DNA from: a virus
Strand: one strand, 5' to 3'
Length of the DNA: 21,148 nt
Virus record (IMG/VR): IMGVR_UViG_3300013093_003307
Coordinates: 1 to 21,148 of that record
Part shown: positions 8,951 through 21,148 of the stretch, piece by piece
Position numbering within the stretch: position 1 is the stretch's first letter
How the letters are laid out: the number at the start of each line of letters is the position of its first letter
Made by a program: the position numbers and the translations under genes
The notes under the pieces: model-generated
Told to the model about the DNA's origin: nothing
What the model saw: only the letters and a program-made list of their open reading frames with translations
Databases searched by the model: none

Positions 8951-8982
8951 TGTTGAATCTCCTAATTTGGATCACTTTGTTT

Positions 8983-8989
8983 TATTTAG
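8983..8989 (-). promoter_or_regulatory. T4-type late promoter (CTAAATA) for gp18
   Basis: The minus strand reads CTAAATA 32 bases before the gp18 ATG, leaving a leader with an AGGAGA ribosome-binding site at 8958-8963. It shares the TAAATA core with the other late promoters in the window. Confidence 0.6.
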
Positions 8990-9014
8990 CGATACCACAA
9001 GATTTTTTACCGTA

Positions 9015-9021
9015 TTAAATA
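9015..9021 (+). promoter_or_regulatory. Possible late promoter (TTAAATA) for the HNH-type gene
   Basis: TTAAATA lies 29 bases before the ATG at 9051 and shares the TAAATA core of the late promoters. It falls within a short palindrome at 9011-9023 (CGTATT-A-AATACG), so it might instead be a protein-binding site. Confidence 0.35.
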
Positions 9022-9050
9022 CGTTTGTAAAGGGCAACAAAAGGGCGCAT

Positions 9051-9389
9051 ATGTCGAGATTATTATGTAAAAAATGCGGAACTAGGCCAAGGGCTGTTAA
9101 CTATCACAAAGAGGGCAAGACCTATTATAGGAGTCAGTGCGACCATTGTGTTAGGGGAAGAGAAGAAGGAATCCCAAGATGGGCCAGGGCAGGATACAAG
9201 TTAAAACTGAAATGCGACAAATGCGGCTTCACTAGCAGATATTCCAAACAGTTCAATGTATATCACATAGATGGAAATTTAGATAACTGTCGCCATGCTA
9301 ATCTCAAATCAGTATGTGCCAACTGCCAGAGACTACTACTAGATGAAGGCGTCAGTTGGAGACAGGGAGATTTGGTACCAGATTTTTAA
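9051..9389 (+). CDS. HNH-type, double zinc-ribbon protein
   Basis: This is a small 112-residue protein, probably a nuclease or DNA-binding protein. Four CxxC pairs are visible: C6/C9, C30/C33, C55/C58 and C89/C92, which could form two zinc sites. Between the last two pairs, YHIDGNLDNCRHANL at residues 71-85 matches the HNH pattern, with the His-containing turn and the Asn about 10 residues later. The ATG at 9051 is preferred over an in-frame TTG at 8967, because the TTG sits inside the gp18 leader and would put 28 unrelated residues before the first zinc motif. Similar proteins lie near gp18 in marine T4-like phages (from memory). Its last 38 bases overlap the convergent dNMP kinase gene. Cleavage activity is inferred. 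Confidence 0.75.
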   Translation: MSRLLCKKCGTRPRAVNYHKEGKTYYRSQCDHCVRGREEGIPRWARAGYKLKLKCDKCGFTSRYSKQFNVYHIDGNLDNCRHANLKSVCANCQRLLLDEGVSWRQGDLVPDF

Positions 9390-10897: not shown

Positions 10898-10905
10898 TAT
10901 AAATA
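10898..10905 (+). promoter_or_regulatory. T4-type late promoter (TATAAATA, perfect consensus) for gp14
   Basis: An exact match to the T4 late promoter element lies seven bases before the ATG of gp14. With a T4-like start site about six bases downstream, transcription would begin at or next to the start codon. The whole gap between gp13 and gp14 is 28 bases and holds both divergent promoters. Confidence 0.8.
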
Positions 10906-13506: not shown

Positions 13507-13929
13507 ATGCAGATAGTTTGCAGTGGCGGTTTATTCTTAACTAAAGATACTAAAAGATTTTTATTCTTGCTAAGGACTCAAGGAAAGACAGCAGGAACAT
13601 GGGGCCTTGTGGGCGGAAAGAAAGAACCACAGGACCATACGCCCTATGATGCTCTTAAAAGAGAAATAGAAGAAGAAGTAGGCAAAACTCCGGTCATAAA
13701 AAAAATAGTTCCTTTAGAACTATTCACTAGTAACGACCAACAGTTTCAATATAATACCTACGTTTTGATCGTAGAAAAAGAATTTATCCCGACGCTCAAT
13801 GATGAGCATTCGGGATATGCTTGGTGTGACCTTAACGCATGGCCTAAGCCATTACACCAGGGTGTTAAAACCAGCCTCAATAATCGATCTATAAAAACTA
13901 AGATCGAACTATTGCTAGAGTTGATTTAA
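13507..13929 (+). CDS. Nudix hydrolase
   Basis: Nudix enzymes hydrolyse nucleoside diphosphates linked to another group, for example damaged dNTPs or sugar nucleotides. The 140-residue length is typical. The Nudix helix is REIEEEVG at residues 57-64, fed by VGGKKEPQDHTPYDALK at 40-56. Compared with the usual GG-x2-E-x-GE-x5-A-x2-RE spacing there is one extra residue before the helix, and the GE dipeptide reads QD. The catalytic REx2EExG residues are intact. Other fold features are the GGLFLTK first strand and FQYNTYVLIVE. The ATG directly follows the gp15 TAA, so it should be translated from the gp14-gp15 late transcript. Its end overlaps the convergent 100-aa gene by four bases. Substrate is unknown. 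Confidence 0.88.
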   Translation: MQIVCSGGLFLTKDTKRFLFLLRTQGKTAGTWGLVGGKKEPQDHTPYDALKREIEEEVGKTPVIKKIVPLELFTSNDQQFQYNTYVLIVEKEFIPTLNDEHSGYAWCDLNAWPKPLHQGVKTSLNNRSIKTKIELLLELI

Positions 13930-14249: not shown

Positions 14250-14257
14250 TATTTATT
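14250..14257 (-). promoter_or_regulatory. T4-type late promoter (AATAAATA)
   Basis: The minus strand reads AATAAATA followed by CTATT, 21 bases before the ATG of the 100-aa gene. It overlaps the last two bases of the upstream kinase gene, so it makes the 100-aa gene a separate late unit. Confidence 0.65.
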
Positions 14258-14873
14258 ATCTTCCCCAGCCTACCCTGGTCCAAATGCGTTCGTGTGCCCA
14301 AAATAGGAATACTTTAGTAAAGATCTCAACTCCGCTAATAGCAAGTGCCATTTTTGCCTGACCTGTGATGATAAAACTTAATATAAATGTATCAACAGTT
14401 CCCAGGGTTCTCCAGCTGACTGCTTTAGCTATGCTTCGTAAATGGCTTTCGCTTTTAGGTATGGCTAGAGAAGCTGAAATGCTTTTAACCCACTCATCGC
14501 TCCAATCGGTTACATGATAATCTACATCGATAGGTTTTTGGAATACTTTGTTAGTATCTTCAAATCTACCCGCTGTGATAGTATCCATCCATATTACTAT
14601 ATCAGCATCAAACGCATCTCTCAGGTCTTGTGTGGGACATACAAAATCACATATGGCGAAATCAACTTCGGCTTTCTTGGCTAGATCACCCATGCGCTCG
14701 ACCTGCCGCTTACGGCCTTCTGGGCTGAAATCCCAATCATTGTACTGCTCACGGACAGCATCGGCGTTAAACCATTTAACCGTGTGGGTAAGCATGAGCC
14801 TTTTTACGAGCTCTTGGCTAAACGTGGTTTTGCCGGATCCCGGCAGGCCCATTACCAATATCTTTTTTGTCAT
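14256..14873 (-). CDS. APS-kinase-like P-loop domain fused to DUF2061 membrane domain
   Basis: Adenylylsulfate kinase (CysC) makes PAPS, the universal sulfate donor, from APS and ATP. Residues 1-135 match CysC: P-loop GLPGSGKT (9-16), FNADAVREQYNDWDFSPEGR (35-54; CysC has DGDxVR...FSxxxR), VERMGDLAKKA (58-68) and CDFVCPTQDLR (75-85; CysC FxxPxxxxR). Residues 146-204 match DUF2061 (PF09834): SIAKAVSWRTLGTVDTF, then two hydrophobic stretches around 160-192 and FWAHERIW. That domain is membrane-associated and of unknown function. The ATG overlaps the GT4 stop (ATGA), making this the last gene of the operon. A sulfotransferase four genes upstream would use PAPS. Gluconate-kinase-like or other small-molecule kinase activity cannot be excluded. 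Confidence 0.82.
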   Translation of the reverse strand: MTKKILVMGLPGSGKTTFSQELVKRLMLTHTVKWFNADAVREQYNDWDFSPEGRKRQVERMGDLAKKAEVDFAICDFVCPTQDLRDAFDADIVIWMDTITAGRFEDTNKVFQKPIDVDYHVTDWSDEWVKSISASLAIPKSESHLRSIAKAVSWRTLGTVDTFILSFIITGQAKMALAISGVEIFTKVFLFWAHERIWTRVGWGR

Positions 14874-15781
14874 TTTGATAATCTATCTATCAAACCTTGC
14901 CACTCTAAGATACGTGTATTCCAAGAATAGAAACCATTATAGTATTCGTTCTGTCTCTTAAGTAACTCTTGTGTATTGGTCGTCCAATATTGGTTAATCG
15001 CCCTATTAAGAGCGTGAGCGAATCTCTCTGCCATTATATCTCTATTAGGTCCGTAAGGTATATAATCTGCCCATTCTCCGCAGGTTTCAGGTAAGGCACC
15101 GTGTCCTGTTGTAACTACTTTACATCCCGAGATCAATGCTTCGATTGCACTTATACAACTTGTTTCTTCAAAGGTATTAGGATAGGCAAATATGTGTGCT
15201 TTCTTAACAGTATCTCGCACTATATCGTTAGTGGCATAGCCGTGATATGTGATGCCCGGTGTATTCCTGCACTCTTCCCATAGGTGATCAAATTGACCTT
15301 TGGTCTGTTCTTCAAACTTAGGTCCATATATCTTAGTACTAGAAAATACATCGAGTTCTACATCAGAACGATTCAACAGCTTAAATGCCTTGATCAATAT
15401 ATCCAACCCTCTCCAAGGAGTTGAAGTGTATACTAACTTAAACTTCCCTTGTTCTCTAGGAATCCATTGGCACGGTTGGCTGGCATTTTTTATGACCATA
15501 CATTTATAAGCAGGCATCTTGAACTCTTTTAAGAACTTTTCATATTGCCAATGGCTAACCCAAACGAAGGCATCTATTTTTTCTACAAACTTAGGATCTC
15601 CCATCAGAGCTACAGTTTCTTCGTTAGTGTTTAACTGTTGCCATAATATATTTTTTTTAGTAGGATCTATATATTGAGGATCGCAAAAACTAAGGATTAG
15701 ATTAACTTTATCTTTGTAGCCGGTTTTCAACAGTTTATCAACTGTATAATACATGAGCTCACTTCCGCCTAATGGTTTCAT
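14870..15781 (-). CDS. Glycosyltransferase, GT4 family (GT-B fold)
   Basis: GT4 enzymes transfer sugars from nucleotide-sugar donors with retention of configuration, usually in building surface polysaccharides. The donor-side motif is intact: E206-x7-E214 within FEETSCISAIEAL (204-216), followed by SGCKVVTTGHGALPE (218-232). The start of the second Rossmann domain is KFKLVYTSTPWRGLDILIKAF (113-133). GGSE at residues 5-8 is the usual N-terminal glycine loop, but the first beta strand that normally precedes it is missing; an in-frame stop lies nine codons upstream. The 303-residue length is short for GT4. The start overlaps the stop of the GmhB-like gene (ATGA). Acceptor and donor are unknown. 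Confidence 0.88.
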   Translation of the reverse strand: MKPLGGSELMYYTVDKLLKTGYKDKVNLILSFCDPQYIDPTKKNILWQQLNTNEETVALMGDPKFVEKIDAFVWVSHWQYEKFLKEFKMPAYKCMVIKNASQPCQWIPREQGKFKLVYTSTPWRGLDILIKAFKLLNRSDVELDVFSSTKIYGPKFEEQTKGQFDHLWEECRNTPGITYHGYATNDIVRDTVKKAHIFAYPNTFEETSCISAIEALISGCKVVTTGHGALPETCGEWADYIPYGPNRDIMAERFAHALNRAINQYWTTNTQELLKRQNEYYNGFYSWNTRILEWQGLIDRLSK

Positions 15782-16428
15782 AGTGCCTCCGCAAACTTCA
15801 TAAGATTATCATAGATTTTTACTTTTGGTTGTAATAATCTATAGATAGGATTTTTGAGTTTTTCAGCGGTCTTCTGACCTTTACCGGTTAACACTAGTAC
15901 AGGAGTAGCGCCGGCTTTGTCTGCCATGACTAGATCTTCGATACTATCTCCGACATATACTCCCCCGGAGATCTTTACCCCCGGACTATTAGACTCAGCA
16001 TGTTTGAATAAACCAGTATTAGGTTTAGCATAAACATCTTCTTTACGACTACTGGTGTTATACCATATACCGTCAATACTAGTGCAGCCTGCCTGTCCTA
16101 ATAGCTGTAGCATGTGTCTATTACAATCTTCGACCTGTTCTATCGTTACTTTTTTCTGCACGACTCCTGGTTGATCAAACAATATTACTATCTTGTGTCC
16201 TTTACTGCGTATCAAAGCTACTGCTCTAAATGATCCATCTATAGGGTTGAATGTGTCTGGACCTGTGATAGCATCTCCGCATTCTACCATGACACCGTCT
16301 CTATCTAATGCGATAGTGTATTTGTCAAAGGTTGTAGGCATCTGTAGAGGAGTATAGACGCCTACCCCCTGTTGTTCTGCTATCGGTGCGTTGGTAACTA
16401 TGCTTTTTTCTACACTAAAACGTCCCAT
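15778..16428 (-). CDS. HAD phosphatase, GmhB-like (heptose bisphosphate phosphatase family)
   Basis: GmhB removes the 7-phosphate of D-glycero-manno-heptose 1,7-bisphosphate during ADP- or GDP-heptose synthesis. The ATG at 16428, four bases past the previous stop, gives 216 residues; an upstream TTG at 16542 would overlap the previous gene by 110 bases and is rejected. HAD motif I is ALDRDGVM (residues 41-48, D42 and D44). Motif III Lys lies in KPNTGL (135-140). Motif IV is VGDSIEDLVMADKAGAT (159-175). Motif II is odd: LFDQPGV (83-89) stands where GmhB has TNQSGI, so the Ser/Thr is Phe. The Cys-rich zinc loop of many GmhB proteins is absent. About 37 residues precede motif I. The substrate is therefore uncertain; histidinol-phosphatase-like activity is an alternative. 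Confidence 0.78.
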   Translation of the reverse strand: MGRFSVEKSIVTNAPIAEQQGVGVYTPLQMPTTFDKYTIALDRDGVMVECGDAITGPDTFNPIDGSFRAVALIRSKGHKIVILFDQPGVVQKKVTIEQVEDCNRHMLQLLGQAGCTSIDGIWYNTSSRKEDVYAKPNTGLFKHAESNSPGVKISGGVYVGDSIEDLVMADKAGATPVLVLTGKGQKTAEKLKNPIYRLLQPKVKIYDNLMKFAEAL

Positions 16429-16432
16429 GTGA

Positions 16433-17221
16433 TTACTCGTATAATGATTTAATATCGGGCGGTGTTGCTCCGCCATATCCAGTCGGAGACATATTTTGTC
16501 CTTTCTGCATATTGTCGTACCAAGCTTCAAAGTTTCCAGCAAATCTCTTGGTTCCTATATGCCCGCAGGTTATAGTTGGGTCTAACCAAACCGGTATGCC
16601 ACCGTCGTTTAGTTTCTGGCATACTAGTATATCTTCGCTAAAAATCTCGCCGTTTTTAATCTCTACATCAAATATCCAACGACGCACTTTTCCTTGATCT
16701 TTTTCTTCGTAAGGCGTGCTGTTATCCCATAGATACTGTACGGCAGCCTTGGACATACGTAAGAATCCTGTACCTAATCCTTCTGCATGTATTAAACCAT
16801 TGCTAGGATCTCTCGATCTCTTGGTATCTAATATCTTGGCCACATATTGTTCTAGATCACCTTTTTTACGATATGTTCCACCGACTACATCTACCGGATG
16901 GTTCAACAACTTAAAAAATTCCTCAGGTACCCAATCTATATCACTGTCGATAAACACTATATCATCAAATCCACTTTCTATCATTATGCCCATGAGATCG
17001 TTCCTAGCACGCTGTATCAGGGCATCATAACTTAACCATATAGGCATGATCTCTATACCTAGTTGTAGTCCCATGCGTATAGTCTGGATGAGGCTGTTGG
17101 CATACCACACTTCGATACGACCGTCATAACATGGAGTTCCTATCAATACCCGCCGAGGTTGATTCTGGGGTGCTTGAGGTTCCTGTAGTTGTTTGTTAAA
17201 TTTTCTGCTTATTCTATCCAT
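16433..17221 (-). CDS. Glycosyltransferase with DxD motif (GT-A-like)
   Basis: Probable cytoplasmic sugar transferase. Residues 1-22 are Gln/Pro-rich. Then come RRVLIGTPCYDGRIEVWY (23-40), IQRARNDLMG (69-78, an 'ARN' motif common to GT-A enzymes), the metal- and nucleotide-binding DSD within FIDSDIDWVPEE (90-101), EGLGTGFLRMSK (147-158), SEDILVCQKL (195-204) and CGHIG (219-223), whose His may complete metal binding. This order fits GT2-type enzymes and resembles glycosyltransferases of other T4-like marine phages (from memory). The 262 residues are enough for one GT-A domain. The start overlaps the end of the sulfotransferase gene by 13 bases. No membrane segment is seen. Confidence 0.82.
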   Translation of the reverse strand: MDRISRKFNKQLQEPQAPQNQPRRVLIGTPCYDGRIEVWYANSLIQTIRMGLQLGIEIMPIWLSYDALIQRARNDLMGIMIESGFDDIVFIDSDIDWVPEEFFKLLNHPVDVVGGTYRKKGDLEQYVAKILDTKRSRDPSNGLIHAEGLGTGFLRMSKAAVQYLWDNSTPYEEKDQGKVRRWIFDVEIKNGEIFSEDILVCQKLNDGGIPVWLDPTITCGHIGTKRFAGNFEAWYDNMQKGQNMSPTGYGGATPPDIKSLYE

Positions 17222-18024
17222 AGTATTTGTCTCTTTATATGATCAAAATCAAACTTCCAGAAACTCTGTCCAACATTTTGTTGCCATAGATCTGATGGGA
17301 TGATCGGTTTTCTCTGTTTATATTCTACTTTTTTCCTAACTGTATGTAGACCCTTTATGTTGGTAGCTTCATCAAACTCGTCGTAGCTATCTTCGACATT
17401 ATCAAAATCGTGATCATAGTAGGGTTCGTTTAAGAAACCATATATCGTTTCCATAGTTTCTTGTGGCCTTTTAGATAGCGCATCATAATCGACTACGCAC
17501 AACATATCTTTTTCATTGCTGAAAAGGGCCTGTTTTAGACAGGTAATAGGACCTGCTACATATCCGTTGTTTGGATCCATCAAAGATTGAGATCTATGAT
17601 ATACCGTGCCTAGATCTTGGTGATGATATAAGGCTTTTATCGTATAGGGATTCTTGGCATTGAGCTGTTCAAAACTGTCCAATATCCAAGGCACATCCCT
17701 TATACAGATGATGATCTTGCTACCGGGGAATAGATCTCTTACCAGTGGAGTCTGCGAAGTCCAGGCACGATTAGTATTAAAACATACTTCATTACCATCT
17801 TCGTAAAATGCCTTAAAAAGACCTTTGATCAACCTTTGGCGTTTTTCTATAGGTACCGCAGACTCCATACCTACGCTGGCGTGTGTAGTGGTTAATATGT
17901 TCCTGGCATAATCATGCAATGGATCACTTATCTGTGCGGTAAATCTAGGATTTTGTTTTAGGATTGATGTTAATAACGTAGATCCACTACGCGGTAATCC
18001 TGATATAAAATGATATTTTTGCAT
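17209..18024 (-). CDS. PAPS-dependent sulfotransferase
   Basis: The enzyme transfers sulfate from PAPS to a hydroxyl or amine, usually of a carbohydrate. The 5'-phosphosulfate loop is intact: GLPRSGSTLL (9-18). The 3'-phosphate-binding segment follows as KIIICIRDVPWILDSF (103-118) with R109 and S117. The 271-residue length is normal for a single sulfotransferase domain. No signal peptide or membrane anchor is seen, so it should act in the cytoplasm. The ATG follows the NodU-type stop codon with no gap (TAAATG), so translation is coupled. Four genes downstream lies an APS-kinase-like protein that would make its co-substrate. The acceptor is unknown; the glycosyltransferase neighbours suggest a glycan. 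Confidence 0.9.
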   Translation of the reverse strand: MQKYHFISGLPRSGSTLLTSILKQNPRFTAQISDPLHDYARNILTTTHASVGMESAVPIEKRQRLIKGLFKAFYEDGNEVCFNTNRAWTSQTPLVRDLFPGSKIIICIRDVPWILDSFEQLNAKNPYTIKALYHHQDLGTVYHRSQSLMDPNNGYVAGPITCLKQALFSNEKDMLCVVDYDALSKRPQETMETIYGFLNEPYYDHDFDNVEDSYDEFDEATNIKGLHTVRKKVEYKQRKPIIPSDLWQQNVGQSFWKFDFDHIKRQILWIE

Positions 18025-19719
18025 TTATTTTATTATTAGCTTTCCTACTTCTGATAGATATAGATATTTTATATCCGATCTTGCCAGCGTGTCAATGGCA
18101 TCTTCTAGTGTTTCAACCAAAGGATCACCGGCTAGATTAAAACTGGTATTAAACAACATAGGAACTCCGGTCATCTTATAAAACGAGTTAATCAGATTAT
18201 AGTAGTCTATATTGTCACCCTTACTTACTGTTTGTACACGGCATGTTCCATCTACGTGAGTTACAGCAGGAATCTCTCCTAGTTTACTAGGTAATACATT
18301 GATGGCATACATCATAAATGGGCTAGATTTCAAGCCTCTCATCTCAAACCATTCGTGCGCATATTCTTCCAATACACTTCCAGCGAATGGTCTGAACCAT
18401 TCACGACCCTTGACCTTGTTTACAAAATCTTTACCATTAGCACCGCGAGGATCAAATAAGATACTTCTATTACCTAATGCTCTAGGGCCTGCTTCGGCAC
18501 TTCCCCTAAACATGGCCACGATATTTTGATCGACCAATAACTGTGCGATATCATCAGGTGTGACATCATCCACGACCTTAAGGTTTTTACTATGTATCGC
18601 TTTGAGATCATCATATGACGGCTCTAGGCCTAGATATAAGGTAGTAAGAGGATTAGGAATAGTGCTGTTGCTATGTAGATGCCATGCTAAAAGCGCCAGA
18701 CCTAGTGCTGTTCCACCATCGTGTGCTATGGGATCTACATAGATATTAAGCTCGGGAAATCTTTCTAGGTAATAGTAGTTGGCTACACAGTTAAGTCCAT
18801 AGCCTCCTGCGATAACCACATTCTTTTCTCCTGTCTTCTGTACAGCTAACTCGATGATATCGCCCAGTTGTTCCTGCGATTCTTGCTGTATGTGCCAGGC
18901 TAGATTCTTGTCTATATCACGGACCTTACTGAAATCATGATGCCATACAGATGGATCTTGGGTCCTGCGCAAGTATGTAAATCTATTTTCATCTATTAGA
19001 GCACCGGCCGGATACATAGGTTGCAATAGATTTTTGTTGCCTTTACCTTCTACAAAGAAATTAGGTATGTTAGAGTCATACTTTCCGTAGGGTGCTAGTC
19101 CCATGGTCTTACCAGCTTCGATAAAACCAAATCCTAGATAGTTACTGACAGCTTCATAGGCTTTAGTGATAGTGACAGAATTATCAAACTCCTGTACTCC
19201 GTTGTCAAAATATCTAGCACTACCGTCAGCATAGCGTTTATACACGGTATCAAACCCATTGGGATAACTGCACTTGTAGATGCTTTCTGTTTCAAATCCA
19301 CTGGTAACAGGACTATCTTCTGCGTCGCCCATCTTGGCGCTGTGTACACTACCGGCACCATCGGCTATCACTGCTACAGCAGTAGTGAATCCACTATTAT
19401 AAAAAGCGCCTGCGGCATGTCCAAGATGATGCTGATGTCCAAGATTAGTTACTTTTACCTTGGGATTAAACTTGCGGACCAGTGCTGTATAAGCATCTTC
19501 ATAGGTCCAAGGTAGTTTGACTAGGTCGGGGCTGGTTCCGCCGATCACTAGTTCATCTACATGTGTGCTTTCTAACACAGTCAACATAGCACGGAAAGGA
19601 TTGCCGTCATATTTCATACGGCTTAGACGTTCTTCTTCTGCGTAGAATACTACCTTGCCATCCGATACCAATGCCGCTGACCCATTATGTCCAGGATTAA
19701 TCGCTAGTATATTATACAT
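18025..19719 (-). CDS. O-carbamoyltransferase, NodU/CmcH family
   Basis: NodU-type enzymes transfer a carbamoyl group from carbamoyl phosphate, through a carbamoyl-adenylate, to a sugar or antibiotic hydroxyl. The 564-residue length is typical. The N-terminal Kae1-like domain has INPGHNGSAAL (7-17), the metal-binding HHLGH (97-101) and VIADGAG (117-123). The active-site cleft has GGYGLNCVAN (305-314). The C-terminal YrdC-like domain has FRGSAEAGPRALGNRSI (404-420), REWFRPFAGS (439-448), HVDGTCRVQTV (488-498) and FNTSFN (523-528). All key motifs are intact. The start overlaps the GT9-like stop by one base. The acceptor is not known; the neighbours suggest a sugar of a surface glycan. Similar genes occur in marine T4-like phages (from memory). 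Confidence 0.95.
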   Translation of the reverse strand: MYNILAINPGHNGSAALVSDGKVVFYAEEERLSRMKYDGNPFRAMLTVLESTHVDELVIGGTSPDLVKLPWTYEDAYTALVRKFNPKVKVTNLGHQHHLGHAAGAFYNSGFTTAVAVIADGAGSVHSAKMGDAEDSPVTSGFETESIYKCSYPNGFDTVYKRYADGSARYFDNGVQEFDNSVTITKAYEAVSNYLGFGFIEAGKTMGLAPYGKYDSNIPNFFVEGKGNKNLLQPMYPAGALIDENRFTYLRRTQDPSVWHHDFSKVRDIDKNLAWHIQQESQEQLGDIIELAVQKTGEKNVVIAGGYGLNCVANYYYLERFPELNIYVDPIAHDGGTALGLALLAWHLHSNSTIPNPLTTLYLGLEPSYDDLKAIHSKNLKVVDDVTPDDIAQLLVDQNIVAMFRGSAEAGPRALGNRSILFDPRGANGKDFVNKVKGREWFRPFAGSVLEEYAHEWFEMRGLKSSPFMMYAINVLPSKLGEIPAVTHVDGTCRVQTVSKGDNIDYYNLINSFYKMTGVPMLFNTSFNLAGDPLVETLEDAIDTLARSDIKYLYLSEVGKLIIK

Positions 19720-20654
19720 TATTTTGTTTTCTCTATGTCTGCTACGATCATGTTGTAGATATTAGTGATTTCACTCTCATCAAAATCCATCATAGTATCA
19801 TTATAACGATCTGCTAACACGCTGTCTAGTCCAGTGATACGTATCGGACTGTATTTTTTCTGTCCTGCTTTCTCTATGATTTGGAAATAATCTGGATAGC
19901 TGGTATTGACAGGGAACGTGCTACCAAATATAACAGTTCCTGGACAACCTACTGCACGTGCCATATGTTGTCCCACCGAATCTACCCCTACGAAATAGTC
20001 AGCATAGCTGATCAATGATGCCCACATGCGTAGGTCAGTCTGTGGAGGTAACTTGACTGTGTAACTGTCGGTGGTGATCTGTAGTTGTTGCTCTCCGAAA
20101 AATATCATGTTATACCTAGCGGCCAGTTTCTTAGTCAGGCTGATATAGCCATCTGCGCTAAGGCTACGGCTGGCGCTGTCGATGACATCATTGCGATCCA
20201 AGGTAGCACCTCTACCGAATGGTTGTATCACGATAGTTTTGGCTTTCTGCTGTTGCTGTTTGACATCAGCTATGGTATTGACTGCCCATTTTTCTTCAGT
20301 CTTGCTGAATATCATCTTAGGAATACCTAGATCACTATGATCTGTAGTTCCATTGATCTCTCTATCAAACCCTTCTACTAGACTGATCTCTTGGCGGAAG
20401 TAAGCAGGTAGCCTATAGGGCTCAGGAGTCATGATTAGATCTGCTTCTTTGATCACATTGTCCCAGATGCCTTTGGTGTCTGCGCCATAGGTACGATCTT
20501 GTAGTTCCGGAATGCTCCAAAGTAGATAGTCCCAAGCGGGTATGATCAGCGCCCAATCTAGGGTTGGGTTGAGTCTGTTGAATTTGAGTAATGCGGGTAT
20601 TGCCGCGATAACACGGCCTGCGCCGCCATCGATGTAGATTATTGTTTTTGCCAT
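19719..20654 (-). CDS. Glycosyltransferase, GT9 (heptosyltransferase)-like
   Basis: GT9 enzymes transfer heptose from ADP-heptose to lipopolysaccharide core; related ones act on other glycans. The 311 residues begin MAKTIIYIDGGAGRVIAAIPAL, the family's 'GxGDxixaxPal' opening. The donor-domain signature is clear: YFVGVDSVGQHMARAVGCP (220-238), then VIFGSTFPV (241-249), matching the GT9 'vGvDSG.mHlAaAlg.P.v.lFG.t' region with SVGQH in place of SGxxH. The ATG at 20654 has AGAGGA four bases upstream. An in-frame TTG at 20705 lies in the -35 box of the promoter and is rejected. It is the first gene of the seven-gene operon. The heptose donor is inferred from the family and from the GmhB-like gene nearby. 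Confidence 0.82.
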   Translation of the reverse strand: MAKTIIYIDGGAGRVIAAIPALLKFNRLNPTLDWALIIPAWDYLLWSIPELQDRTYGADTKGIWDNVIKEADLIMTPEPYRLPAYFRQEISLVEGFDREINGTTDHSDLGIPKMIFSKTEEKWAVNTIADVKQQQQKAKTIVIQPFGRGATLDRNDVIDSASRSLSADGYISLTKKLAARYNMIFFGEQQLQITTDSYTVKLPPQTDLRMWASLISYADYFVGVDSVGQHMARAVGCPGTVIFGSTFPVNTSYPDYFQIIEKAGQKKYSPIRITGLDSVLADRYNDTMMDFDESEITNIYNMIVADIEKTK

Positions 20655-20676: not shown

Positions 20677-20705
20677 AATATATACTGATAATTATCAGAA
20701 GTCAA
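20677..20705 (-). promoter_or_regulatory. Sigma70-type promoter for the glycan-enzyme operon
   Basis: On the minus strand, TTGACT (20705-20700) and TATATT (20682-20677) are separated by exactly 17 bases. Each hexamer matches five of six bases of the bacterial consensus. A start about seven bases downstream would give a 15- to 20-base leader holding the AGAGGA ribosome-binding site. No TAAATA late element is present, so host-type polymerase and early or middle expression are predicted. Confidence 0.7.
20685..20698. promoter_or_regulatory. 14-bp perfect palindrome in the promoter spacer (possible operator)
   Basis: CTGATAATTATCAG is a perfect 14-base palindrome lying wholly inside the 17-base spacer of the sigma70-type promoter. 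A second inverted repeat, CAGTA-ATATA-TACTG (20673-20687), overlaps it and covers the -10 box. There is no T run, so it is not a terminator. A repressor dimer bound here would block polymerase. Confidence 0.6.
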
Positions 20706-20718
20706 TGGCCTGGCGGAT

Positions 20719-21148
20719 TTATTGTGGTTCTACTAGGCTACGTAATCTATCCACTTCGATACTGAGTTCTTGGATAGCACGTACTAGTACTGGTAAAAGT
20801 TTACCCGGAGTAGCTTCTAGCCTCGATCCATCTTCGTTACTGATGATCAAATTCAAGTAATCAGTAGCTGTGAATTTCTTTTGGACCTCATCTAGTTCCT
20901 GGGCGATAAATCCAGCTTCTGGTATTCCTACCTTGGCTCCGTCCCTCATATTCCAATCGAACTTAACTGGACGTAGTGCGCGAACGAATTCTAATCCAAT
21001 CGGTAGTCCACAGATATTAGTCTTATCTCTGCAGTCTGATAGTGCTGTTATGCTAGTTTGCTGTGCACGTATAGTGGCGATCGAGCTATTACCTAGCGTA
21101 ATGGTATTACTACATGTTGCGGCTAATCCTACAGCACCATTACCTAAG
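20719..21148 (-). CDS. Tail fibre C-terminus with Peptidase_S74 self-cleaving chaperone (partial)
   Basis: The reading frame is open from the right edge to the stop at 20719, so this is the 3' end of a longer gene. A first internal ATG at 20949 is not the start. The visible part begins with a repeat-like beta region (NTITLGNSSIATIRAQQ). Then comes ALSDCRDKTNI, the S74 signature 'SDxRxK'; the Ser codon is at 21037-21039 and the Lys codon at 21022-21024. After it come GLEFVRALRPVKFDWN, GFIAQELDEVQKKF and the closing helix LLPVLVRAIQELSIEVDRLR. S74 domains trimerise, fold the fibre and cut themselves off before the Ser, which here would release 106 residues. The fibre binds the host surface, next to an operon predicted to alter glycans. 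Confidence 0.9.
   Translation of the reverse strand, partial: LGNGAVGLAATCSNTITLGNSSIATIRAQQTSITALSDCRDKTNICGLPIGLEFVRALRPVKFDWNMRDGAKVGIPEAGFIAQELDEVQKKFTATDYLNLIISNEDGSRLEATPGKLLPVLVRAIQELSIEVDRLRSLVEPQ

Follow-up and report, generated by a model that had tools for sequence, protein, structure and literature searches.

A 21,148-base stretch of IMG/VR virus record IMGVR_UViG_3300013093_003307, referred to here as the window, is a fragment of a T4-type phage and carries seven closely packed genes, A to G, downstream of a tail-fibre gene that ends in an S74 domain (Table 1). As a set of seven they form a local arrangement, within which the conserved unit is a pair of genes: A, which encodes a glycosyltransferase (GT) resembling family GT9, and B, which encodes a carbamoyltransferase. 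The pair is common to at least three phage types, and lies beside fibre or virion genes in each of them. The explanation favoured here, which we give about an even chance of being correct, is a fibre-coupled glycan-decoration module that acts late and decorates the virion, probably its fibres, rather than the host surface.

The tightness of the pairing is most evident from a search with B only. Gene A is directly upstream of B in all 77 testable loci (three further loci stop at a contig edge and are therefore untestable for A), and at 90% identity the B proteins fall into 53 clusters. The distances separating A proteins also match those separating B proteins, with a mirror-tree correlation of r = 0.904 for 58 representatives that was not reached in any of 999 permutations. 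Constant pairing and matched distances therefore identify A and B as a conserved unit. A homologue of E adjoins B in antisense orientation in 28 of the 53 non-redundant loci.

The first-pass annotation had described A to G as one array on the minus strand, and the order, strand and packing of the seven open reading frames (ORFs) are indeed as it proposed. As a single evolutionary unit, however, the set does not hold, since the order and content of D to G vary. The viral collection was searched with C and then with A, and all seven genes were mapped on each locus. Within the window's clade, 27 neighbourhoods hold both A and B, and counts among them are lower bounds because of a 7.5-kb limit and truncated flanks. 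Homologues of C occur in all 27 (a divergent second paralogue being counted in those that have no close orthologue), D and F in 26 each, G in 17, and an E-like gene in six. Independent occurrence of the genes in related phages is thus not what is observed: A and B are never separated in testable loci, and C, D and F recur within 7.5 kb. The order A-B-C-D-E-F-G is kept in close relatives of the window, while other members of the clade have F, D and a second sulfotransferase gene between the S74 fibre gene and A. In the subclade of the window, gene E is encoded on the same strand as its neighbours; elsewhere it is either antisense beside B or absent.

All seven genes are under purifying selection. 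The ratio of non-synonymous to synonymous substitution rates (dN/dS) is 0.02–0.10 against loci L003, L008 and L010 wherever dS is estimable, although these values are rough, as dS is high or, for several genes, saturated. The locus is not a chance assembly, given that its families are found together in dozens of contigs and that its genes are under purifying selection. This bears on the suggestion, left open for the lipopolysaccharide (LPS) genes of cyanophages, that such genes could be non-functional ‘stuffer’ that fills a large head (PMC3037559). Low dN/dS makes junk filler untenable, the strict A-B pairing and matching trees argue the same way, and the pair is also found in a podovirus-type contig of 55 kb, all of which leaves this explanation with almost no credibility here.

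The first-pass annotation's link between the locus and a receptor-binding fibre is supported, and the association with fibres extends across phage lineages. The pair is found beside fibre genes in the jumbo T4-like clade to which the window belongs, and in the cultured cyanophages P-SSM2, S-SSM7 and S-CAM3 it corresponds to T4-GC302 and T4-GC303, lying between tail-fibre genes. The third type is represented by the 55-kb contig (L137), which carries podovirus-type genes for a portal or head-tail adaptor, major head protein, internal virion protein-like product, DNA polymerase I and ribonucleotide reductase. Here, the order A-B-E(antisense)-HldE-II-HldE-I-cupin-HldD is placed between an S74 tail fibre and more large genes. 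A scan of the genome collection with the A alignment returned ten GTDB metagenome-assembled genome (MAG) contigs (L084–L093), labelled Woesearchaeota, Euryarchaeota, Gammaproteobacteria, Rhodobacteraceae and others. Every one of the ten has A adjoining B, and the fibre synteny of most is of the cyanophage type, so that they are probably phage DNA misbinned into MAGs; no clearly cellular member of A was found in that scan.

The predicted structure of A (AlphaFold2 model, mean predicted local distance difference test score, pLDDT, of 83) has a GT-B fold of the WaaC/WaaF type. Its nearest folds in the PDB are a GT9 protein of V. parvula, WaaC, TibC and WaaF (E = 3e-11 to 4e-8). The Glyco_transf_9 model scores above its cut-off over residues 213–269, the C-terminal motif for an adenosine diphosphate (ADP)-linked donor is present, and GxGR and DSxGQH are invariant in an alignment of 26 sequences. 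A comparison of A (A1) with WaaC, WaaF, WaaQ and WaaU of E. coli by hhalign gives E = 1.4e-7, aligning the C-terminal half and no further. A profile search of the PDB with A found no relative, and A scores below the NCBIfam equivalog cut-offs.

Gene B encodes both Carbam_trans_N and Carbam_trans_C domains and retains the HHxxH and GPRALGNRS motifs, which places it among enzymes of the NodU/TobZ type; its nearest solved structures are 7xb6 and TobZ (3e-49). The product of C scores 54.6 bits for Sulfotransfer_3 (cut-off 27) and has the loop PRSGSTLL for 3'-phosphoadenosine 5'-phosphosulfate (PAPS), as expected of a PAPS-dependent sulfotransferase. For D, which matches no Pfam family, the AlphaFold2 model (pLDDT 85.8) has a GT-A fold, closest in the PDB to STIV A197, the collagen galactosyltransferase GLT25D1 and the PBCV-1 capsid glycosyltransferase; a PDB profile search with D gave chance matches and nothing else. 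The enzyme classes that the first-pass annotation had assigned are thus matched by family searches for A, B, C, E, F and G, and by predicted fold for D.

Its statement that key motifs are mostly intact stands overall, with exceptions in three genes, A, E and G. The product of E, a phosphatase of the haloacid dehalogenase (HAD) superfamily, reaches 89.5 of the 178 bits needed for the GmhB equivalog and, judged by eye, has no GmhB Cys/His zinc loop. G passes the Pfam APS_kinase (adenosine 5'-phosphosulfate kinase) domain cut-off, and scores 24.6 of the 138.7 bits required by the apsK equivalog. Relatives of G (L010:7508–8299; L031:11199–12047) are 264–285 amino acids long and combine APS-kinase-like and NMNAT-like nucleotidyltransferase domains, with DUF2061 encoded by a separate gene of 70 amino acids. 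The version in the window has lost the nucleotidyltransferase domain and joins the kinase to DUF2061. By hydropathy, G has a membrane segment and is alone among the seven in this, with none in A to F.

A heptose component, as the first-pass annotation had suggested, draws support from ADP-heptose genes found beside A and B in other lineages. A 13-kb sequence from a single-cell marine virus (AG-345-O18) encodes a sulfotransferase, HldE-II, HldE-I, a small HAD protein, a cupin, HldD and A-B-E. Its best NCBIfam matches include rfaE_dom_II, rfaE_dom_I, heptose_epim and GmhB (four genes), all below equivalog cut-offs. Many of loci L120–L170 likewise have an ADP-heptose set (GmhB-like, HldE-II, HldE-I, cupin, HldD) after A-B. 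Together with the fold of A, these neighbours make ADP-heptose the best guess for the donor, and gene context supports the prediction that A moves heptose from it. As a sign of heptose in its own right, the GmhB-like E is weakened by a degenerate motif II and a score below the equivalog cut-off, so that the case is carried by the A-B neighbourhoods elsewhere. LPS of marine Synechococcus contains neither heptose nor 3-deoxy-D-manno-octulosonic acid (PMC4515613). Consequently, the heptose genes of cyanophages would make a sugar absent from the host LPS, and do not serve to extend a heptose core there. GmhA (PF13580), taken as a marker of heptose synthesis in phages, had no match in 17 relatives. 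As a marker, GmhA is ill suited, since the protein called ‘phosphoheptose isomerase’ in cyanophages belongs to the EcbF-type HAD proteins. That annotation is attached to T4-GC306 of P-SSM2 (L073:13015–13359) and to its orthologues in S-SSM7 and S-CAM3. In NCBIfam, the counterparts from P-SSM2 and AG-345-O18 match EcbF/BcbF-type HAD phosphatases and no other model, and the label is thus not supported and looks wrong.

These observations bear out the first-pass annotation's general reading, that the locus builds and decorates a glycan, and the following scheme can be proposed. A would transfer a heptose-type sugar from an ADP-heptose-like donor, and B would O-carbamoylate the sugar so added. Where the host offers no donor, the phage would supply ADP-heptose genes of its own, while most phages of the window's clade presumably draw on host ADP-heptose. 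In this clade, D and F would attach further sugars and C would sulfate the product with PAPS, possibly aided by the kinase G, so that carbamoyl and sulfate groups might be carried by one and the same glycan. Expression is likely to be late. The acceptor may be a virion protein, with the Ser/Thr-rich fibre encoded immediately upstream as the most likely candidate; the whole gene of this fibre is present in a contig identical to the window (L002:3914–7303; 1130 amino acids, 21% Ser+Thr). A virion acceptor is suggested because the module sits within the structural-gene block, on the same strand and beside fibres, and lacks genes for a flippase, polymerase, ligase or lipid-carrier enzyme. More specifically, and only tentatively, it is possible that a fibre-linked, Arg-type GT9 heptosyltransferase and the O-carbamoyltransferase with which it is always paired put carbamoylated (here also sulfated) heptose on fibres, having moved among T4-like and podovirus-type phages and bringing an ADP-heptose route where the host makes none.

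A T4 late-promoter-like TATAAATA occurs in the window at 10898–10905, immediately 5' of a virion gene, and is also there in L003, L005 and L007; another lies at L002:1523–1530, immediately 5' of the first fibre gene. Matches to TATAAATA are few and their count is not above shuffled expectation, and they are not used as evidence. Just upstream of two S74-ended fibre genes, L002 also encodes a 2-oxoglutarate (2OG)-Fe(II) oxygenase (417–1238; PF13759), and such oxygenases are likewise found near the fibre clusters of cyanophages.

Several points weigh against the proposed scheme. The catalytic Asp expected of a GT9 enzyme is lacking in A, where an Arg follows GGxG in 79 of 80 homologues. In WaaC, the catalytic residue is Asp13, within an N-terminal GD motif, and it is invariant in four GT9 proteins of E. 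coli. (The Arg is equated with Asp13 by sequence motif, as the hhalign alignment spans the C-terminal half alone.) Heptosyl transfer by A is therefore not assured: either its mechanism or its acceptor differs from those of GT9 enzymes. Conservation of the Arg nevertheless argues against a dead enzyme. In E, motif II reads FDQ in the window where HAD proteins have T/S-N-Q, although some relatives have TNQ. Most contigs of the window's clade have no clear HldE or HldD genes, with mostly weak and ambiguous matches to the HldD and HldE-II models. The window itself has the GmhB-like E and no other ADP-heptose gene, while a close relative (L009) has HldD, HldE-II and cupin genes elsewhere in its genome. 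Lastly, lipid-linked sugars can serve as substrates of soluble GTs too, by way of host flippases, and adjacency to fibres could stem from the exchange of host-range modules.

The first-pass annotation had offered two roles for the glycan, on the host surface and on the virion, and the evidence leans towards the virion. In the published view of clusters of the P-SSM2 type (PMC2984593; PMC7824862), the target is the surface of the infected cell, whose LPS or capsule would be remodelled so as to exclude a second phage, or to keep progeny off the dying host and its debris. Receptor-altering enzymes are a logical pairing with receptor-binding fibres, and D, F and C vary in place and copy in the manner of O-antigen genes. 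However, a module inside the structural-gene block, by fibres in several phage types, is less readily explained in this way, as is one without polymerase, flippase, ligase or lipid-carrier genes and with no membrane segment in A to F. For cyanophages, moreover, the LPS of marine Synechococcus offers no heptose to extend (PMC4515613). Modification of the host surface is consequently regarded as possible, but as less likely than that of the virion. A diffusible, carbamoylated secondary metabolite (an antibiotic or toxin) was put forward for the cluster of S-SSM6a, which has been read as a system for secondary metabolism or capsule decoration (PMC7824862), and S-SSM7 also has a halogenase, a 2OG oxygenase and a second carbamoyltransferase. 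Yet B is invariably partnered by a GT9-fold transferase, accompanied by ADP-heptose genes, and not by a halogenase or methylase, and neither fibre adjacency nor the podovirus-type case would be explained. This makes such a product improbable.

Less probable still is hypermodification of phage DNA, in which B would carbamoylate 5-hydroxymethylcytosine (5hmC) and the GTs would glycosylate the DNA. A phage NodU-type enzyme does produce 5-carbamoyloxymethylcytosine (PMC8670742), and glycosylated DNA occurs in T4-type phages. B, however, is 25% identical to the 5hmC carbamoyltransferase, and the two differ at two of three discriminating residues (W408, G421 and R423 of TobZ): B retains the G and R of ALGNR, against ALCNT in that enzyme. 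Thymidylate synthases of four relatives carry Asn177, typical of enzymes acting on deoxyuridine monophosphate, rather than Asp. A search of 20 contigs, many of them fragments, gave no homologue of the hydroxymethylase type. The neighbours of B are ADP-heptose and fibre genes; carbamoyltransferases of unmodified contigs adjoin GT genes (PMC8670742). On the basis of residues, neighbours and thymidylate synthase type, the locus does not qualify as a 5hmC system, and DNA hypermodification was rejected as unlikely.

Table 1. Genes A to G and the end of the neighbouring fibre gene, with coordinates in the window.
Gene	Position	Strand	Length	Predicted product	Family matches
A	19719..20654	-	311 aa	GT9-like (heptosyltransferase-fold) glycosyltransferase	Pfam Glyco_transf_9 1.8e-7; phrog_8954 1.9e-75
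B	18025..19719	-	564 aa	NolO/NodU/TobZ-type O-carbamoyltransferase	Carbam_trans_C 3.4e-59; Carbam_trans_N 7.4e-22; phrog_1601 3e-153
C	17209..18024	-	271 aa	Sulfotransferase	Sulfotransfer_3 2.4e-14
D	16433..17221	-	262 aa	GT-A fold glycosyltransferase, IDSDI (DxD) motif	phrog_1574 3.8e-22
E	15778..16428	-	216 aa	HAD-IIIA phosphatase, GmhB-like	NCBIfam GmhB PRK08942 1.8e-25
F	14870..15781	-	303 aa	GT4 glycosyltransferase	Glycos_transf_1 4.1e-11; phrog_2170 1.3e-34
G	14256..14873	-	205 aa	APS-kinase-like P-loop + DUF2061 membrane domain	APS_kinase 6e-8; DUF2061 1.9e-18
Upstream tail fibre, C-terminal end	20719..21147	-		S74 intramolecular chaperone	Peptidase_S74 8e-10

Along the array, A and B overlap by one base, B and C abut, C and D overlap by 13 bases, D and E are separated by four bases, and both E/F and F/G overlap by four. 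The start of A is taken as the ATG at 20654; the TTG at 20705 chosen by the ORF caller would add 17 amino acids that are absent from most relatives. Similarly, E is taken to start at the ATG at 16428, not the TTG at 16542, because relatives begin there and are 215–218 amino acids long. Rfam and tRNA scans of the window gave no match.

The earlier assignment to a T4-type phage is confirmed by genes for a tail tube, a tail sheath of 1144 amino acids, head closure, Ad2 and a sheath stabiliser in the left part of the window, the last of which has its nearest counterparts in the large phages Atu_ph07, Phosso and PA5oct, a group to which the phage is related. A copy of the locus with 100% identity lies in IMGVR_UViG_3300022602_000029, a contig of 193,746 bases, and relatives reach 354,680 bases, which points to a jumbo T4-like clade. 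As psbA is nearly absent (one distant contig was positive across two contig sets), the clade probably does not consist of cyanophages. A Nudix hydrolase gene (13507–13929) adjoins the sheath-stabiliser gene; it is kept across the window's clade, with up to 95% identity, and is likewise adjacent in Pseudomonas phage PAC2. On the plus strand, an ORF of 140 amino acids (8967–9389) has many CxxC pairs, an HNH-like stretch (HIDGNLDN) and no PHROG match, and may be a candidate homing-type endonuclease. Another of 541 amino acids (76–1701) has Cys/His-rich stretches and matches only a phage cytidyltransferase family, weakly and over a short length.

Ever since P-SSM2, it has been a puzzle whether the ‘LPS genes’ of phages armour the host, are junk filler or serve some other purpose (PMC2984593, PMC3037559). 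The present analysis narrows this to a single conserved pair of genes that is under selection and keeps its association with fibres in different phage lineages. Should the fibres be glycosylated, phages that are abundant in the environment would recognize their receptors with the involvement of a sugar of their own making. The unusual GT9 active site of A is also of enzymological interest. Earlier work has described glycan clusters in phages, LPS genes in cyanophages and carbamoyltransferases of jumbo phages (PMC2984593, PMC3037559, PMC7824862). In a search that reached little of the subscription literature, no paper was found to mention the A-B pair or its constancy, to connect it with ADP-heptose and fibre genes, or to report it outside cyanophages; nor was any found on phage loci with both a sulfotransferase and a carbamoyltransferase. 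While phage ‘LPS clusters’ are known, the fibre-linked pair and its spread across lineages thus appear to be new.

Among known systems, A shares its predicted fold with the GT9 ADP-heptosyltransferases WaaC and WaaF and the autotransporter O-heptosyltransferase TibC. The donor-site motifs are alike (GxDSxGQH...GST.P in A; VDTGLSHLTAA...GPTDP in WaaC), and A departs from WaaC and WaaF in having Arg instead of the catalytic Asp in the N-terminal GD motif. The O-carbamoyltransferases NodU, NolO and TobZ have both domains of B and its HHxxH and GPRALG motifs, whereas the branch found in phages, to which B belongs, is tied to gene A. The substrate of TobZ is an aminoglycoside, and that of NodU is Nod factor. 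The 5hmC carbamoyltransferase (eLife 2021, PMC8670742) has Pfam families in common with B, and differs in overall sequence, specificity residues and gene neighbours.

Among the closest counterparts are the ‘LPS gene clusters’ of the T4-like cyanophages P-SSM2, S-SSM7 and S-CAM3 (T4-GC 302–308), where orthologues of A (T4-GC302, annotated as hypothetical) and B (GC303) stand side by side between tail-fibre genes, with genes for HldE-II, a kinase, a HAD protein, a cupin and an epimerase after them. The window differs in belonging to a jumbo T4-like clade with no psbA detected, and in having sulfotransferase, GT-A, GT4 and kinase/DUF2061 genes in place of HldE/HldD; its A is 34–36% identical to the cyanophage proteins, and its B about 47%. 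Glycosylation of virion proteins by phage-encoded GTs, as proposed here, is known from mycobacteriophages Che8 and Rita (as cited in PMC11256854). Enzymes for heptose, carbamoyl or sulfate groups are not described in the account consulted, nor is a gene pair linked to fibres. In that account, the glycan of Che8 and Rita is carried by major capsid proteins, unlike the fibre that the genes of the window suggest as acceptor.

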